DNA of 25,870 nt from a virus. Shown piece after piece: positions 5,516-17,315 of this stretch. Both the position numbers and the translations under genes were made by a program. The notes under the pieces are model-generated. The model saw only the letters and a program-made list of their open reading frames with translations, did no database searches and had not been told where the DNA came from. How positions within the stretch are numbered: the first letter of the stretch is position 1; the number at the start of each line of letters is the position of its first letter. The stretch covers positions 1-25,870 of IMG/VR virus record IMGVR_UViG_3300003690_000139. The stretch is one strand, 5' to 3'.

Positions 5516-6265
5516 ATGCAAAAAAACAGAACTACTAGCGCGATCATTTACGAAGGTCCGTCATTAATCGATGGCGGCCCGATTGTAGTTATTGCAATTG
5601 TGTCAAAACGCAATCGCAAAACGGGCGATATGCTTCAAACCTATATCCAGCGCGCGGACGTTCCGCCCGTCGAGGCCTCGCGTTTAGGCCTTGATGCCTC
5701 ACAATGTGGAGCCTGTCCTTTGCGCGGTATTGCCAACCTTGAAAAAAAGACCGGACAAGCTGATAAACGCGCGTGCTACGTGCTTTTAGGACAAGGCCCG
5801 ACGGGCGTTTACAAAACGTATAAGGCAGAAAAATACCGCCACGCGGTAGGTCACGCTGATATTGCCGCGCTGGGTGCTGATCGCATGGTCCGAATTGGAA
5901 CTTACGGCGACGGGGCAGCCGTTCCGTCTTACATTTGGGATTCGCTTCTGTCCGAATCGATAGGGCATACCGCCTATACTCATCAGAGCGCGAATTGCGC
6001 GACTAGCTTTGACGGCTCGCGTTATATGGTCTCAGCCGACAGTGAGCAGGCCGCGCGCGCTGCATGGTCCCAAGGATACCGCACGTTTCGCGTTATCGCG
6101 TCGGTGAATGAGCTGGCAAGTGAGGAGATCCTCTGCCCAGCGAGCAAAGAAGCGGGGCGGCGTACACAATGCGCGAGCTGTAAGCTTTGTGGGGGCGCGA
6201 GCGTCAAAGCTAAGAGCATTGCCATAGTGGCTCATGGCGCGGGCGCTAGGCATTTCGGGGCTTAG
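5516..6265 (+). CDS. Conserved phage protein with Cys clusters (DUF7227-like)
   Basis: A 249-residue protein. Its order of motifs matches a phage family I recall as DUF7227: GLDASQCGACPLRG (about 59-71), CYVLLGQGPTGVYKTY (about 87-102), RIGTYGDGAAVP (about 126-137), GHTAYTHQS and MVSADSEQAA, then CPASKEAG..TQCASCKLCGG near residues 207-226. The paired CxxC clusters at both ends suggest a zinc or iron-sulfur site. No function is established that I know of. The start at 5516 has GGGAGG about six bases upstream. Its last three codons (TTC GGG GCT) already belong to the G-rich repeat that continues beyond the stop, so the repeat tract abuts or has invaded the gene end. Confidence 0.75.
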   Translation: MQKNRTTSAIIYEGPSLIDGGPIVVIAIVSKRNRKTGDMLQTYIQRADVPPVEASRLGLDASQCGACPLRGIANLEKKTGQADKRACYVLLGQGPTGVYKTYKAEKYRHAVGHADIAALGADRMVRIGTYGDGAAVPSYIWDSLLSESIGHTAYTHQSANCATSFDGSRYMVSADSEQAARAAWSQGYRTFRVIASVNELASEEILCPASKEAGRRTQCASCKLCGGASVKAKSIAIVAHGAGARHFGA

Positions 6266-6347
6266 GGTTCGGGGCTTTCGGGTTCGGGGCTTTCGGGTTC
6301 GGGCCTTGGGGTATTAGGGTATTAGGGTATTAGGGTATTAGGGTATG
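6254..6347 (+). repeat. G-rich repeat tract, locus 2 (TTCGGG, then TATTAGGG units)
   Basis: Begins in the last codons of the preceding gene. It contains GGGTTCGGGGCTTTC units, followed by four exact tandem TATTAGGG octamers (6312-6343). The G-tracts are spaced so that quadruplex formation on the plus strand is possible. Confidence 0.7.
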
Positions 6348-6372
6348 TAGGCAGTGTAAACATTATATAGGG

Positions 6373-6419
6373 GACGTTTAAACATCGCCCCTTGCCAAGT
6401 TAGGCGGCGTCTTTTTATT
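6373..6419 (+). terminator. Possible terminator with GTTTAAAC
   Basis: GACGTTTAAACATCGCCCC is followed by CCAAGTTAGGCGGCGTC and TTTTTATTT. GACG/CGTC with inner CGCC/GGCG pairing could form an imperfect hairpin before the U-rich stretch. The downstream TCTTTTTATTTCTTGCTGGC block is repeated exactly at 7880-7906. Confidence 0.4.
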
Positions 6420-6435
6420 TCTTGCTGGCGGTTGA
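6410..6435 (+). repeat. 26-bp direct repeat, copy 1 (terminator tail to -35)
   Basis: The segment running from TCTTTTTATTTC to GGCGGTTGA is identical to 7881-7906. Each copy leads straight into the promoter of a small cassette gene. Confidence 0.75.
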
Positions 6436-6459
6436 TATCCATCATATTCCATGTATGAT
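6432..6459 (+). promoter_or_regulatory. Predicted promoter for the 55-residue cassette gene
   Basis: TTGATA (6432-6437), a 16-base spacer containing ATTCCATG, then TATGAT (6454-6459). An inverted repeat CATCATA/TATGATG spans spacer and -10. The leader then reads ATCGACAACAAGGGAG, matching the other cassette promoters. Confidence 0.6.
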
Positions 6460-6488
6460 GTCATCATCGACAACAAGGGAGATGGAAA

Positions 6489-6656
6489 ATGAACTTTTTC
6501 AAAGATACGAAAGACTACGCAGACGAGCTACTAGTAGCGAAAGGTGGTGACATTGAGGCCGCTCAGGAGGCTCTGTTCCTCGCCGCGCCCATGCATAAAC
6601 CAACGCCCAACGCTTTTTGGCGCGCAGTTTTTCTAGACTTAGAAGCATTAAAATAA
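6489..6656 (+). CDS. Small cassette protein, 55 residues
   Basis: A short frame missed by usual length cut-offs. It encodes MNFFKDTKDYADELLVAKGG, then DIEAAQEALFLAAPMHKPTPNAF, then a C-terminal helix ending DLEALK. It is amphipathic and helical, with no membrane segment, and I do not recognise it. Support comes from context. A near-consensus promoter lies 30 bases upstream, the shared leader motif and a GGGAGA ribosome site precede it at normal spacing, and a strong hairpin lies just after the stop (6670-6697). It is thus a complete promoter-gene-terminator unit within the terS-terL insert. Small independently expressed genes in such places often turn out to be host-takeover or anti-defence proteins, but nothing in the sequence proves that here. 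Confidence 0.65.
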   Translation: MNFFKDTKDYADELLVAKGGDIEAAQEALFLAAPMHKPTPNAFWRAVFLDLEALK

Positions 6657-6669
6657 GAAAGCCTCGCCT

Positions 6670-6697
6670 AGGCCCTCACTCTATCGGGTGGGGGCCT
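6670..6697. terminator. Strong hairpin after the 55-residue gene
   Basis: A 12-bp stem with two wobble pairs and a TATC loop. The core CCCTCACTCTATCGGGTGGG closely matches the hairpin at 8486-8511. No U-run follows; it leads directly into the G-rich repeat tract. Confidence 0.5.
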
Positions 6698-6850
6698 TAG
6701 GGCTTTCGGGCTTCGGGTTCGGGCCTTTCGGGTTCGGGCCTTAGGGCTTTCGGGTTCGGGTTCGGGTTCGGGGCTTTCGGGTTCGGGGCTTTCGGGTTCG
6801 GGGCTTTCGGGTTCGGGGTTCGGGCCTATAGGCATTAGGGGTATGGGGTA
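6695..6850 (+). repeat. G-rich repeat tract, locus 3 (non-coding)
   Basis: A dense array of CTTTCGGGTTCGGGG and CTTAGGG units lies between the 3' ends of two convergent genes. Positions 6752-6773 read GGG-TTC-GGG-TTC-GGG-TTC-GGGG, a textbook quadruplex pattern. Stop-free frames across it are artefacts of the repeat. Confidence 0.75.
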
Positions 6851-7868: not shown

Positions 7869-7880
7869 TGGAAAATTAAA

Positions 7881-7906
7881 TCTTTTTATTTCTTGCTGGC
7901 GGTTGA
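7881..7906 (+). repeat. 26-bp direct repeat, copy 2
   Basis: Identical to 6410-6435, running from a T-rich stretch into the -35 of the next promoter. Confidence 0.75.
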
Positions 7907-7931
7907 CACCCATTATCTCCCATGTTATAAG
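7903..7931 (+). promoter_or_regulatory. Strong predicted promoter for the 61-residue cassette gene
   Basis: TTGACA (7903-7908), 17 bases, TATAAG (7926-7931), with CTCCCATGT in the spacer. Positions 7903-7934 are identical to 8209-8240. The leader TATCGACAACAGCGGAAGG follows. Confidence 0.75.
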
Positions 7932-7963
7932 GGACTATCGACAACAGCGGAAGGAATAAATGT

Positions 7964-8158: not shown

Positions 8159-8194
8159 ACCCCCCGTCCTGGTCGGTCGGGGGGTTTTCTTTTA
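8159..8194 (+). terminator. Intrinsic terminator after the 61-residue gene
   Basis: ACCCCCCG (8159-8166) pairs with CGGGGGGT (8178-8185) around an 11-base loop and is followed by TTTTCTTTTATTT. GTTTAAAC (8151-8158) sits immediately upstream. Confidence 0.8.
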
Positions 8195-8208
8195 TTTCCC
8201 TGTAAAGC

Positions 8209-8237
8209 TTGACACCCATTATCTCCCATGTTATAAG
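8209..8237 (+). promoter_or_regulatory. Strong predicted promoter for the 80-residue cassette gene
   Basis: TTGACA (8209-8214), 17 bases, TATAAG (8232-8237). It is an exact copy of the 7903 promoter and its spacer. The leader GTATCGACAACAGAGGAAGG follows. Confidence 0.75.
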
Positions 8238-8272
8238 GGATGTATCGACAACAGAGGAAGGAATTACAGACC

Positions 8273-8737: not shown

Positions 8738-10201
8738 ATGTTGAGCGCCCCTGACGAAATTGTCCGTGAGGTTTTCGCTTTGGAGCAGGCGAAGCGGACT
8801 CTTTCTATTCGCGAGACTGCCCAAGAAGACTTCATGGTTTTTGCGAAGCATGTGTATGACGGTTTTATTGAGGGTTCACATCACAAGCAGGTTGCGAAGA
8901 AGTTTGAGCATTTGGCCGCGAACCGCGGTTCACGGATCATTATCAACATGCCTCCTCGTCATACGAAGAGTGAGTTTGCGAGTTATCTTTTACCGGCTTG
9001 GTTAATTGGCAAGAATCCTAAGTTAAAGATCATTCAGACGACGCACACTGCGGAGTTAGCGGTACGGTTTGGCCGCAAGGTCCGTAATCTTATGGCGCTT
9101 GACGTATACAAGCAGATTTTTCCTGACGTTGATTTACGGATTGATTCTAAGGCTGCGGGTCGTTGGGAGACGGGCCAGGGCGGCGAGTATTACGCTGCGG
9201 GCGTTGGCGGGGCGATCACGGGCCGTGGTGCGGATTTGCTGATTATTGATGACCCTCATTCTGAGCAGGATGCGTTATCCGAGACGGCGATGGAGGGGGC
9301 GTATGAGTGGTATACGTCTGGCCCTCGTCAACGGCTACAGCCTGGCGGTTCGATAGTTATTGTCATGACGCGGTGGTCATTGAAGGATTTGACGGGCAAG
9401 TTGATCCGCGCTCAGGGTTCGGATTCCATGTCGGACCAGTGGGATTTGGTTGAGTTTCCTGCGATATTACCGAGCGGGAACTTACTTTGGCCGGAGTTTT
9501 GGGACAAGGACGAGTTATTACGTGTCAAGGCTTCATTATCTCTTAGCAAGTGGAATGCTCAGTGGCAGCAGAACCCTGTTGCTGAAGAGGGTGCGATTAT
9601 CAAGAAGGAGTGGTGGAACAAGTGGGAAAAGGATGAAATTCCTCCTGTAACGTACATTATGCAGTCATATGACACGGCATTTTCTAAGAAGGAGACGGCG
9701 GATTACTCGGCGATTACGACGTGGGGGATTTTTAAGCCTGTAGAGGGTGGTCCTGACAGCATTATTTTAATGGATGCGAAGCGTGGCCGCTGGGATTTTC
9801 CGGGTTTGAAATCCATGGCGATGGAGGAGTACAAGTATTGGGAGCCGGACATGGTATTGATAGAGGCGAAGGCGACGGGGACGCCTCTTACGGATGAGTT
9901 ACGTTCGATGGGGATACCTGTTGTGAATTACACGCCGTCGCGGGGCAATGACAAGCACACGAGGATGCATTTAGTTGCGCCGATTTTTGAATCCGGCAAG
10001 GTTTGGGCTCCTGACAAGCGTTTTTCGGAAGATGTCATTGACGAGTGCGCGGCGTTTCCCAATGGGGATTACGATGATTTTTGCGATTCGATGTCGATGG
10101 CTTTAATAAGGTATCGCAAGGGTGGTTTTGTACATCTTGACAGTGACCCAGAAGACGAGGATTCTGTTTCGTATATAGGGTCTCCTAGACAGTATTATTG
10201 A
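8738..10201 (+). CDS. terL: Terminase large subunit
   Basis: A 487-residue packaging motor. The ATPase half has a Walker A-like loop NMPPRHTKS (residues 70-78), a Walker B strand LLIIDDPH (167-174) and the coupling motif MTRW (210-213). The nuclease half shows the RNase H-like acidic residues in SYDTAFS (D312), LIEAKATG (E376) and DDFCDSM (D447/D450). The length is normal for the family. It pumps DNA into the prohead through the portal and cuts the concatemer. No convincing ribosome site precedes the ATG; an AT-rich leader does. It opens the late operon, with the portal gene starting 20 bases after its stop. The small subunit is 4.1 kb upstream rather than adjacent. Confidence 0.95.
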   Translation: MLSAPDEIVREVFALEQAKRTLSIRETAQEDFMVFAKHVYDGFIEGSHHKQVAKKFEHLAANRGSRIIINMPPRHTKSEFASYLLPAWLIGKNPKLKIIQTTHTAELAVRFGRKVRNLMALDVYKQIFPDVDLRIDSKAAGRWETGQGGEYYAAGVGGAITGRGADLLIIDDPHSEQDALSETAMEGAYEWYTSGPRQRLQPGGSIVIVMTRWSLKDLTGKLIRAQGSDSMSDQWDLVEFPAILPSGNLLWPEFWDKDELLRVKASLSLSKWNAQWQQNPVAEEGAIIKKEWWNKWEKDEIPPVTYIMQSYDTAFSKKETADYSAITTWGIFKPVEGGPDSIILMDAKRGRWDFPGLKSMAMEEYKYWEPDMVLIEAKATGTPLTDELRSMGIPVVNYTPSRGNDKHTRMHLVAPIFESGKVWAPDKRFSEDVIDECAAFPNGDYDDFCDSMSMALIRYRKGGFVHLDSDPEDEDSVSYIGSPRQYY

Positions 10202-10221
10202 TATCACAGGATAGTTTTATA

Positions 10222-12780
10222 ATGGCTAGAGAACCAACCTCACTTATTTCCGATTCCATCCCTGCGTCTGGCGATCCGCTTGAGGACGGGGAAGAGGTTA
10301 TAGTTGAGGAGGCGGTTGATCCTGAAGAGCGAACAGGTCTTGACGAACTTTTTGAGGACGAGGACGGGTCCGTTGTTCTCGGACGCCTTGAGGATCTTGT
10401 TCAAGAGCAGGTTGAGTCAGAGCCGGATGCCAATCTTGCGGAGATTATTGACGAACGTGTTTTGATGGACATTTCGTCTGAGCTGCTAGGGTATTACGAG
10501 GACGACCGCAGCAGCCGCCAGGAGTGGGAAGATGCGTACACGGATGGTCTTAATCTTTTAGGTGTTAAATACGAGGAGCGGTCGGAGCCTTTTAGGGGTT
10601 CCAGCGGTGTTACGCATCCGATTATTGCGGAAGCGGTGACGCAGTTTCAGGCACAGGCATACAAGGAGCTTCTTCCCTCATCTGGTCCTGTAAGGACGCA
10701 GGTTGTGGGCGCTGCCACGCCGGAGGTTAAGGCACAGGCGCAGCGCGTTCAAGAATTTATGAATTACCAGATCATGCACCGGATGGATGAGTACGATCCT
10801 GAGATGGACCGATTACTTTTCTATTTACCTCTTGCGGGTAGCGCGTTTAAGAAAGTTTATTTTGACGACATGCTGGACAGGGCGGTGTCGAAGTTTGTTC
10901 CGGCGGACGATCTTCTTGTTCCGTATAACGCAACGGACCTTCAGAGTGCTTCGCGGATTACGCATGTCATTCGCATGAACACAAACGACATTCGCAAACA
11001 GCAGGCGGCTGGTTTTTACAGGGACGTAGAGCTTACGCCGTATCAGCAAGACGACGAGGTTCGTGAAAAAGAACGTAGCCTCATAGGTGTTGAGAAAACA
11101 TCTTCGGATGATCAGGACTGCACGATCTTGGAAGTTCACACGGACTTGGACATTCCCGGTTTTGAGCATCTTAATCCGATTGATAATGAAGAGACGGGAA
11201 TTAAGCTTCCGTACATTGTCACGATAGACGAAGGAAGTTCCAAGGTCTTATCGGTACGCCGCAACTGGGTTGAGGGCGACGAGCTTTACCGCAAGGTAGA
11301 ATATTTTTCGCACTACAAGTTTTTACCGGGTCTAGGGTTTTACGGCTTCGGTCTGTTGCACATGATTGGCGGCTTAGGTCGTTCTGCTACTTCTATTTTA
11401 AGACAGCTTATTGACGCGGGCACGTTAGCAAATCTTCCTGCTGGATTTAAGGCAAGAGGAATTCGTATTCGCGATTCGGACGAGCCTTTATCACCGGGAG
11501 AGTTCCGCGACATCGATGTTCCTGGTGGGTCATTAAAAGAAAGCATTATGCCTCTCCCCTACAAGGAGCCGAGCCAAACGCTAATGGCGTTACTTGGTTT
11601 TGTAGTGGACGCTGGGCGGCGGTTCGCGGCGATTGCGGATATGCAAGTTGGCGACGGAAATCAGAACGCTGCGGTAGGAACAACGGTTGCACTTCTTGAG
11701 CGCGGCTCAAAGGTTATGTCTGCGATACACAAGCGTCTTCATTACGCGCAGAAAAAAGAGTTTAAGATGTTGGGGCGTGTGTTCTCCGAATCGCTTCCAC
11801 CTGTTTACCCGTACAGTGTGTATGGTGCGGAGGCGACTATTAAACAAATGGACTTTGACGAACGCATAGATGTTCTTCCCGTTTCTGATCCTAATATTTT
11901 TTCGATGTCGCAACGGTTGGCTTTAGCGCAAACGCAATTGCAACTCGCGCAGGCCAGTCCGCAGATGCATAATATGTATGAGGCTTACCGCAGAATTTAC
12001 CAGGCAATTGGCGTTCACAACATAGAAGAGTTGTTACCTGCGCCCAAACAGCCGGAGCCTGTTGATCCTAGCATGGAAAATGCCAACTCACTTAGCCAGC
12101 TACCGTTGAAGGCGTTTGCCGGGCAGGATCACGATGCTCACATGACGGCGCATATTTTATTTATGAAGACTCCACTTCCTGGTTCGACACCTCCTCTCGC
12201 GGCTGTTTTGCAGGCTCATTTATGTGAGCACATTGCTTTAAAGGCCCGTGAGCAAGTACAATCGCAAATGCAAGCGCAGCAGCAACAAGCCATGCAAACG
12301 GACCAACTCCCCCTCGGTATAGGAGGGCCCCCCGGAATGAACCAACCGCCTCCGGGAATGGGCCAACCGCCTCCAGGAATGGGCCAACCGCCTCCAGGAA
12401 TGGGCCAACCGCCTCCAGGAATGGGCCAACCGCCTCCAGGAATGGGCCAACAGATGCCACAACAGAATGATCCAGAAGCTATGGTTGCTGTCTTGATTGC
12501 TCAGTACACAGAGGAAGTTATGGCTGCGCTTATGCCGCCGGAAGAAGGACAGGTAGATCCTCTGGTGGAGCTTAGGTCTAAGGAGCTTGATATAAAGGCG
12601 GCTGATTTAGAACGTAAAGCTAAAGAATTCTCTGAGAAACTTATGTTTGAGGAGAAAAAAGAGCTTAACAAGGAGGAGATGGCTGCGGAGAAGATAGATT
12701 CCCAGGAAGACATTGCCTTACTCCGGGCCGAGGTTAACCGGGAGCGCATACAACGCACTCCCGCGGGGAGAGGAAACTAG
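10222..12780 (+). CDS. Portal protein, large type
   Basis: An 852-residue protein directly after terL. A segment around SEPFRGSSGVTHPIIAEAVTQFQAQAYKELLPSSGPV is typical of the large portal proteins of marine podovirus-like phages and P22-like portals. It forms the dodecameric gate through which TerL packages DNA. The start at 10222 (MAREPTSLIS) has AGGA about ten bases upstream; a TTG start at 10198 is possible but less likely. The N-terminal 60 residues are very acidic. The C-terminal part has a Gln-rich stretch, five tandem PPPGMGQ repeats, and then a long charged helical tail (about residues 770-850), like the barrel region of P22-type portals. The repeats are unusual and look like recent slippage. 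Confidence 0.85.
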   Translation: MAREPTSLISDSIPASGDPLEDGEEVIVEEAVDPEERTGLDELFEDEDGSVVLGRLEDLVQEQVESEPDANLAEIIDERVLMDISSELLGYYEDDRSSRQEWEDAYTDGLNLLGVKYEERSEPFRGSSGVTHPIIAEAVTQFQAQAYKELLPSSGPVRTQVVGAATPEVKAQAQRVQEFMNYQIMHRMDEYDPEMDRLLFYLPLAGSAFKKVYFDDMLDRAVSKFVPADDLLVPYNATDLQSASRITHVIRMNTNDIRKQQAAGFYRDVELTPYQQDDEVREKERSLIGVEKTSSDDQDCTILEVHTDLDIPGFEHLNPIDNEETGIKLPYIVTIDEGSSKVLSVRRNWVEGDELYRKVEYFSHYKFLPGLGFYGFGLLHMIGGLGRSATSILRQLIDAGTLANLPAGFKARGIRIRDSDEPLSPGEFRDIDVPGGSLKESIMPLPYKEPSQTLMALLGFVVDAGRRFAAIADMQVGDGNQNAAVGTTVALLERGSKVMSAIHKRLHYAQKKEFKMLGRVFSESLPPVYPYSVYGAEATIKQMDFDERIDVLPVSDPNIFSMSQRLALAQTQLQLAQASPQMHNMYEAYRRIYQAIGVHNIEELLPAPKQPEPVDPSMENANSLSQLPLKAFAGQDHDAHMTAHILFMKTPLPGSTPPLAAVLQAHLCEHIALKAREQVQSQMQAQQQQAMQTDQLPLGIGGPPGMNQPPPGMGQPPPGMGQPPPGMGQPPPGMGQPPPGMGQQMPQQNDPEAMVAVLIAQYTEEVMAALMPPEEGQVDPLVELRSKELDIKAADLERKAKEFSEKLMFEEKKELNKEEMAAEKIDSQEDIALLRAEVNRERIQRTPAGRGN
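12343..12447 (+). repeat. Five tandem 21-bp repeats in the portal gene
   Basis: Units of CAACCGCCTCCAGGAATGGG(C) recur five times with only a G/A difference in the first. They encode QPPPGMG. Confidence 0.9.
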
Positions 12781-12848
12781 GACAATTGGCTAATCTACAT
12801 AATCATTACTTCAAGGATGGCACCAGACACCATGGGGAGGCCCATGAA

Positions 12849-12965
12849 ATGCCAAACGGGGACACTCATTCCGGGGCAAGACATACGAAAAGCAGTAAAA
12901 AGCTTTTTCATTACAGAGAACTTCCCTCCGAAGCGGCAAAGAAAAATGCGAGGAAGAAAACATAA
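12849..12965 (+). CDS. Short basic protein, 38 residues
   Basis: The frame MPNGDTHSGARHTKSSKKLF, then HYRELPSEAAKKNARKKT, starts eight bases after GGGGAGG, which is a good ribosome site. It is preferred over an overlapping 72-codon frame (12817-13035), whose start has AAGG almost touching the ATG and whose sequence looks less protein-like. It is highly basic (many Lys, Arg and His) and could bind DNA or the acidic portal surface. The MPNG..H.G..HTKSSK opening resembles small proteins I recall beside portal genes in marine phages. Its stop codon TAA forms the left end of the 22-bp palindrome containing the parS site. Confidence 0.5.
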   Translation: MPNGDTHSGARHTKSSKKLFHYRELPSEAAKKNARKKT

Positions 12966-12984
12966 TGTTTCACGTGAAACATTA
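12963..12984. promoter_or_regulatory. parS: Perfect parS (ParB-binding) site within a 22-bp palindrome
   Basis: Positions 12966-12981 read TGTTTCACGTGAAACA, identical to the canonical bacterial chromosomal parS recognised by ParB. The palindrome extends three bases on each side. It lies between a 38-codon gene (sharing its stop codon) and the 13007 gene, inside the late operon. As RNA it could fold with an ACGT loop, but no U-run follows, so a terminator role is unlikely. No parA or parB gene is visible in the window, so any binding would be by host ParB or by a protein encoded elsewhere on the phage. Confidence 0.85.
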
Positions 12985-13006: not shown

Positions 13007-13303
13007 ATGAAAAAAAGGTCTGGGGGGATGGTTAAACAGATGTCTAATCAAATGGACATCACTAAGGAGAGGGCGGGTAATCTTATGTCCAAGGCAAAAA
13101 AGATGAACTCAAAGGCGAGTTATAAAAAAGGCGGCACGGTTGTTCTTATGAGTTTTGGGGCGCTTGCACCCTACATGGGTATGACGCGGCGCAAAGACGA
13201 TGATGATAATCGTGAAGAAGAAGACGAGTCGTTAATACAGAGCACAGAGAACCAGGTTCGTGCTCGTCATTTTAATAATAACGATGGAAAGGGGACTTTC
13301 TGA
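13007..13303 (+). CDS. Hypothetical protein in the head gene block, 98 residues
   Basis: A Lys/Met/Ser-rich N-terminal half (GNLMSKAKKMNSKASYKKGG), a short hydrophobic patch (TVVLMSFGALAPYMGM), then a strongly acidic stretch DDDDNREEEDE and a polar tail. The hydrophobic patch is too short to be a certain membrane helix. The start at 13007 has AGGCGG upstream; an internal start at MVKQMSNQ, after GGGGGG, is a possible alternative. It lies just downstream of the parS site and overlaps the next gene by one base. I do not recognise it; the position suggests a minor head or portal-associated protein. Confidence 0.6.
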   Translation: MKKRSGGMVKQMSNQMDITKERAGNLMSKAKKMNSKASYKKGGTVVLMSFGALAPYMGMTRRKDDDDNREEEDESLIQSTENQVRARHFNNNDGKGTF

Positions 13304-16406: not shown

Positions 16407-17315
16407 ATGGCTATTAGTAGAGCCCAACTAGCAAAAGAGCTAGAACCCGGCCTCAACGCCCTTTTCGGCCTTGAGTATGCCAGGTACGACAACGAAGCAT
16501 CGGAAATCTACGACACTGAAACTTCAGAACGTGCTTTTGAAGAAGAGGTTATGCTTTCCGGTTTTGGTGCGGCCCCAGTTAAAGCTGAGGGTTCGGCCAT
16601 TTCGTTTGATGACGCGCAAGAGGCGTACACCGCAAGGTATACGCATGAGACTATCGCTCTTGCCTTCTCCATTACGGAAGAAGCAATTGAAGATAATCTC
16701 TATGACCGTCTAGCTTCGCGTTATACGAAAGCTCTGGCACGTAGTATGGCTAACACCAAACAGGTTAAGGCCGCAGCTACGTTGAATAATGCTTTTGATA
16801 GCACGTTTACTGGCGGTGACGGCAAAGAGCTTTGTGCAACGGATCACCCTCTTGTGAATAATAATGATCTTCGTAACGAGCCAAGCACAGCAGCCGACCT
16901 GAACGAAACCAGCCTTGAAAATGCCCTTATCGACATTGCAGCTTTTGTTGATGAGCGCGGCCTCAAGGTTTCGGTTCGTGGCCAAAAGTTGGTTATCCCA
17001 CCGGCACTTCAATTTGTCGCGGATCGCCTTCTTGAGTCCACTCTTCGTCCAGGGACTGCGGACAATGACATCAACGCTACGCGGAACATGGGTATGCTCC
17101 CGCAGGGTTATGTTGTTAATCACTATCTGACGGACACGGATGCATTCTTCGTTAAGACGGATGCACCTCGCGGTTTCGTTCACTTTGAACGTATGCCGAT
17201 GTCTACGAAGATGGAAGGTGACTTTGATACAGGTAATGTACGGTACAAGGCCCGTGAGCGTTATAGCTTCGGTTACTCGGACCCACGTTGCGTGTATGGG
17301 TCTCCTGGAGCGTAA
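16407..17315 (+). CDS. Major capsid protein, Mu gpT-like
   Basis: A 302-residue protein with an N-terminal LEPGLNALFGLEYARYDNEASEIYDTETSERAFEEEVMLSGFG segment. The rest resembles Mu-type gpT major head proteins: the YTARYTHETIALAFSITEEAIEDNLYDRLASRYTKALARSMANTK helical region, LCATDHPLV, LVIPPALQF and the C-terminal RYKARERYSFGYSDPR strand. It forms the HK97-fold icosahedral shell. It carries the best ribosome site of the region (AGGAGGATT) and is followed by a strong hairpin at 17330-17353, both usual for the most abundant phage protein. Pro-capsid cleavage is not obvious from the sequence. Confidence 0.85.
   Translation: MAISRAQLAKELEPGLNALFGLEYARYDNEASEIYDTETSERAFEEEVMLSGFGAAPVKAEGSAISFDDAQEAYTARYTHETIALAFSITEEAIEDNLYDRLASRYTKALARSMANTKQVKAAATLNNAFDSTFTGGDGKELCATDHPLVNNNDLRNEPSTAADLNETSLENALIDIAAFVDERGLKVSVRGQKLVIPPALQFVADRLLESTLRPGTADNDINATRNMGMLPQGYVVNHYLTDTDAFFVKTDAPRGFVHFERMPMSTKMEGDFDTGNVRYKARERYSFGYSDPRCVYGSPGA

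Follow-up and report, generated by a model that had tools for sequence, protein, structure and literature searches.

Why does the structural operon of a phage carry what looks like the centromere of a bacterial chromosome? The window analysed here is a virus record of 25,870 bases, a genome fragment, and among its head genes lies the 16-mer TGTTTCACGTGAAACA, enclosed by the perfect 22-bp palindrome TAATGTTTCACGTGAAACATTA (Table 1). The first-pass annotation had called this an exact canonical parS within a perfect palindrome, and a sequence match over the whole window finds both again. The 16-mer is identical to the consensus parS of ParB biochemistry (PMC7383237) and to the consensus of chromosomal parS sites of bacteria (PMC7383237, PMC10197239). 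No other place in the window matches it with three or fewer mismatches, and shuffled sequences give 0.14 such matches on average. The expected count of the exact 16-mer in 26 kb is about 6e-6; the earlier estimate for a chance match was on the order of one in 100,000. The annotation had also placed the site between the portal gene and the downstream head genes. The junction itself stands, with the refinement that a small ORF of 59 aa intervenes after the portal gene. Its TAA stop codon (12963-12965) supplies the leftmost three bases of the 22-mer, and a family search with this ORF returned no match.

Table 1. Position of the parS site and of the genes around it in the window.
Feature	Position	Strand	Basis or remark
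terL, terminase large subunit	8738..10201	+	phrog_38, E=1.3e-106
Portal / head-to-tail connector	10198..12780	+	57% identical, in the aligned part, to Pelagibacter phage HTVC027P
Small ORF, 59 aa, TTG start, its TAA abutting parS	12786..12965	+	homologues at the same junction in L124, L132, L057
22-bp perfect palindrome around parS	12963..12984	.	sequence; extension beyond the 16-mer not conserved
parS, TGTTTCACGTGAAACA	12966..12981	.	exact consensus; unique in the window; kept in relatives
ORF downstream of parS, function not assigned	13007..13303	+	homologues in relatives
GroES-like co-chaperonin, marker of the phage group	13818..14273	+	phrog_3188, E=6.8e-13
Major capsid protein	16407..17315	+	phrog_371, E=6.9e-26

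The order of the terL, portal, GroES and capsid genes, together with the homologous proteins, assigns the window to the HTVC027P/HTVC023P-like phages. The closest named relatives are Pelagibacter phage HTVC027P (TerL identity 61%), HTVC023P, 023Pt_psg01 and DSL-LC04, and the GroES gene is placed in the same gene order in HTVC027P, DSL-LC04 and RW. The cultured HTVC027P (MN698241.1) has a one-mismatch parS, CGTTTCACGTGAAACA, at 16412-16427, 4 kb upstream of terL.

Is the site kept in relatives? Two sets of relatives, chosen blind to parS and independently of each other, answer this question. Among 26 viral contigs with a portal similarity of at least 64%, the exact 16-mer is present in nine and a form with one or two mismatches in six more. 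These sites occupy gene junctions, often right behind a stop codon; the junctions differ between relatives, and the DNA flanking parS is unrelated in most pairs. The second set comprises 117 loci collected by terminase similarity, and it holds an exact site in 15 loci and a site with up to two mismatches in 20. When 300 palindromes made from shuffled half-sites are sought in the same 117 loci, exact matches have a mean and a maximum of 0, and matches with up to two mismatches have a mean of 0.40 and a maximum of 6.

With at most two mismatches allowed, the window and its relatives together give 33 sites, of which 22 are exact and 11 non-exact. Six of the 11 are either TGTTCCACGTGAAACA, which appears in a B. 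subtilis ParB paper (PMC8299390), or TGTTCCACGTGGAACA, a chromosomal parS in Pseudomonas (PMC7022226). Palindromic extension beyond the 16-mer is absent from 20 of the 33 sites and reaches 3 bp per arm in only two. Column conservation is 0.79-1.00 in the core, values that are partly fixed by site selection, and mostly 0.33-0.5 in the flanks. What is conserved is the 16-mer; the 22-mer is not. The first-pass annotation had proposed to look for the same palindrome at the same locus in relatives, and had named its loss or the drift of its core as a sign against parS. The 16-mer is indeed kept in many relatives, with a stable core in drifting flanks, whereas the 22-bp extension and the locus vary and the site is not universal.

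The distribution is patchy, and many close relatives have no site in the available DNA. No parS was found in L143 or in L147, the contig of the latter being 55.8 kb long, nor in the SAR11-associated phage contigs of the terminase set, which show about 60% TerL identity. The SAR11 single-cell genome G082, which holds one of these siteless phage contigs, does have an exact parS. On a TerL tree of 89 rows the presence and absence of parS requires at least nine changes along well-supported branches; the labelled rows L304 and L199 of this tree rest on untypical two-mismatch sites that are possibly due to chance.

The exact 16-mer is found in at least 120 contigs of a viral collection. In the same collection a reversed palindrome of the same composition is found in one contig and a palindrome with the CACGTG core kept in five. 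Homologues of window proteins are encoded by 47 of the 120 parS contigs listed, a count that is not blind to parS. Chance is thus ruled out by the shuffles, the control palindromes and the collection-wide controls. In a cultured-phage collection a 30-base query around parS returns 347 records, some of which are artificial-flank matches or chance. Two sites each are carried by the Gordonia phages Woes and Kampe, near the right end of the record; Ruegeria phage RpAliso has one exact site and two with one mismatch. Listeria phage A511 has one site, Lactobacillus phage Dionysus two, Bacillus phage BcoS-136 four and Arthrobacter phage Mimi two. The phi29-like B. subtilis phage Goe22 (L398; 19 kb) has four sites of the TGTTCCAC form, all TGTTCCACGTGAAACA, at 10457, 15918, 17258 and 18739, and no ParB_N domain was found in it. 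A general tie of parS to the genome end was considered and not generalised, as positions vary in the cultured phages. Microvirus records also appear, e.g. PQ006134.1 (bajarodino virus 7), where BLAST marks 10 parS-like places in a 5.8-kb genome, or five sites if both strands count.

Which ParB could act on the phage site? The first-pass annotation saw neither parA nor parB in the window, and family searches confirm this. ParB_N (PF02195) was found in 0 of 30 contigs or records, mostly fragments, among them the window, seven contigs of 38-62 kb, HTVC027P and HTVC023P. HTH_ParB (PF17762) and the ParA-type AAA_31 (PF13614) gave no match in the window, the seven long contigs and HTVC027P, with control genomes matched. 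ParB_N is present in 4 of 50 further parS-bearing contigs; in 12 checked cultured-phage records it is clear in Metamorphoo and weak in Pureglobe5. The non-structural proteins of the relatives G005, G020, G021 and G025 include DNA polymerase A, helicase, primase and lysis families, and a partial scan of their proteins of at least 100 residues showed no integrase, phage repressor or partition family. By this partial gene scan the long relatives have virulent-type genomes with parS and without their own ParB.

Recruitment of host ParB, the main idea of the first-pass annotation, is well supported, because parS is conserved with drifting flanks and no par genes were found. The palindrome is very probably a parS to which ParB binds, and the ParB acting on it is likely that of the host, both as judged from sequence. 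SAR11 and Rhodobacteraceae assemblies in which related phage contigs occur also have exact parS, on contigs other than these, and bacteria of these types would therefore be expected to recognise the site.

We suggest the following mechanism. A true parS, the loading site of the chromosome-partition CTPase ParB, would sit in cis on a phage that has no ParB of its own. With the entry of the DNA, host ParB-CTP would load at parS and slide onto the adjoining phage DNA. The partition complex formed there would then be handled by host ParA, and perhaps by SMC, like the origin region of the chromosome. The most likely gain would be a phage genome positioned and held at the nucleoid, or inherited by a daughter cell, when the infection is slow or deferred, as with phi29 and Spo0J. 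ParB covers up to about 18 kb around parS (PMC8299390), so one parS could be enough to mark the greater part of the region with the packaging and structural genes. That the function is positioning or retention of the genome is argued by analogy, and we put it at slightly under an even chance. The whole explanation, in which parS stands in cis on a phage without its own ParB, host ParB loads, and the genome is positioned or kept, has in our judgement an even chance of being right. The patchy distribution fits a conditional benefit, but it also counts against the explanation. Against a partition role, a phage with a single site and genes of lytic appearance has no obvious need of partition; against host recruitment, the window is a fragment, and the remainder of the genome could hold parB.

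The same putative binding would also serve phage genomes that, as they replicate, titrate host ParB from the chromosome, so that segregation and division are stalled or SMC is redirected to phage DNA. The lytic gene set is in agreement with such titration, and so are the three to five sites of some phages. However, the window phage and many relatives have one site only, where selection would favour more, and we consider titration unlikely.

The location of the sites brings up a local late step, in which parS and host ParB would organise phage DNA, for example by condensing or marking concatemers next to the start of packaging, close to terS/terL, or by helping DNA entry. In the terminase set terL is no more than about 400 bp away from 16 of the 20 sites, most of them 17-150 bp upstream of the gene; in the window clade the sites follow the portal gene by about 0.04-1.6 kb, and those of Woes and Kampe are close to the right record end, as noted above. 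However, relatives differ in where parS stands with respect to terL and portal. Depending on the clade, it is found at post-portal junctions, ahead of terL by 17-150 bp, or behind terL; in the sister clade around L083 it is mostly upstream at this distance, with some members having it downstream, and on the TerL tree the upstream and downstream placements fall largely into separate groups. Other cultured phages have their sites elsewhere. Moreover, portal- and terminase-anchored sampling of short contigs favours nearby sites and is blind to distant ones. A packaging or entry role is in our view improbable.

The site might instead serve a partition system of the phage itself, with a diverged ParB-like protein missed by the family models. 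Phages with parABS do exist, Metamorphoo combines parS with its ParB_N protein, and the window is only part of a genome. However, phage-encoded ParB usually has its own cognate site rather than the chromosomal consensus, and the ParB_N, HTH_ParB and AAA_31 searches were empty, also in the long contigs. A parB elsewhere on the phage, which the first-pass annotation had held as an alternative, is thus disfavoured, and we regard a separate phage system as quite improbable.

The weakest reading, that the palindrome only resembles parS and acts as an operator bound by a transcription factor of phage or host, as an RNA hairpin or as a terminator, agrees with the location at gene junctions and with the terminator-like stem followed by T that the window 22-mer forms on the minus strand only, but the neighbour genes vary between relatives, the hairpin extension is not conserved, RNA folding gives only z=-1.66, an Rfam search returned no match, the changes are mostly one-sided or known parS forms, and the same 16-mer occurs in unrelated phages of many hosts, so that an operator is very improbable and a hairpin or terminator is rejected. 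An integrated prophage was rejected as well: the close genome-collection matches are phage-like contigs in MAGs and SAGs, and their host labels are contradictory.

How does host ParB recruitment compare with known systems? The use of host ParB by a virulent phage is already known. According to Meijer et al. 2005, as cited in PMC9437464, virulent phi29 enters spores through host Spo0J, the ParB of B. subtilis. Like phi29/Salasvirus, the window group is of virulent type by the partial gene scan and shows no ParB of its own in the genomes searched; phi29 uses host ParB, and for the window group we propose this use. In Goe22, a relative of phi29, the four parS have the form known from B. subtilis. 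However, phi29 exploits the sporulation of a Gram-positive host, whereas the window group is unrelated to it and has hosts not known to sporulate, and its long relatives carry DNA polymerase A replication genes, unlike phi29. P1, N15 and Mic1 (PMC7156551) likewise bear a partition site on the phage genome, but they carry parA/parB with a cognate site, while in the window group the searches gave no par genes and parS has the consensus sequence of chromosomes. Bacterial chromosomal parS (PMC7383237, PMC10197239) are identical in sequence to the phage sites and have similar variants, yet they lie near oriC and the window parS lies in a phage structural operon. Sites for a host cell-cycle protein are similarly present in alphaproteobacterial phages, where the protein is CtrA (lytic deferment, PMC9437464); CtrA, however, is a transcription regulator and ParB a DNA clamp of the segregation machinery.

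New are the occurrence in marine phages without a known sporulating host, the placement beside terL and portal, and the breadth. An open-access library without most subscription papers yielded no report of parS in this phage group, so an earlier report is possible. If host ParB loads, a common class of marine phages makes use of the machinery by which its host segregates the chromosome, the phi29 case extends beyond sporulation, and there is a mechanism for holding phage DNA in slow-growing or dividing cells. More tentatively, and with somewhat less than even confidence, we suggest that host-type centromeres were repeatedly taken up, and then retained, by lytic phages of many bacterial groups, among them abundant marine ones; through these centromeres host ParABS would handle the phage genomes during infection of non-sporulating hosts, and in the window group they would be tied to the packaging module. 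The use of host ParB can be tested in culturable phages that have sites of this type, namely Ruegeria RpAliso, Gordonia Woes and Bacillus Goe22.

Several further observations concern the region around terL. Two contigs, L017 (2657-3444) and L044 (10535-11462), have five exact parS each in a largely noncoding stretch of about 0.8-0.9 kb next to terL; their terL genes are distantly related, the flanks of the five sites are unrelated, and neither contig has ParB_N. Among the loci L222-L298, the contig end lies no further than 500 bp upstream of terL in 23 of 78 cases, against 3 of 78 for the same distance downstream, and the upstream region, often repetitive and variable, is perhaps a genome end, an origin or a packaging site. 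The window itself has noncoding tandem repeats upstream of terL, TTCGGG/GGGCTTTCGGGTTCG and GGGTATTA, at 6254-6351 and 6684-6832. Three promoter-like leaders (about 6412-6490, 7878-7960 and 8190-8265; TTGACACCCATTATCTCCCATGTTATAAG in two of them) precede small ORFs and have sigma-70 spacing of host type. On the minus strand, 1269-2765 encodes a protein whose ATPase domain is of HSP90/histidine-kinase type (PF13589, E=3.4e-07), which is unusual for a phage. At the C-terminus of the portal protein (12327-12451) a 21-bp repeat is present six times and encodes a Gly/Pro-rich (PPPGMGQ) stretch.
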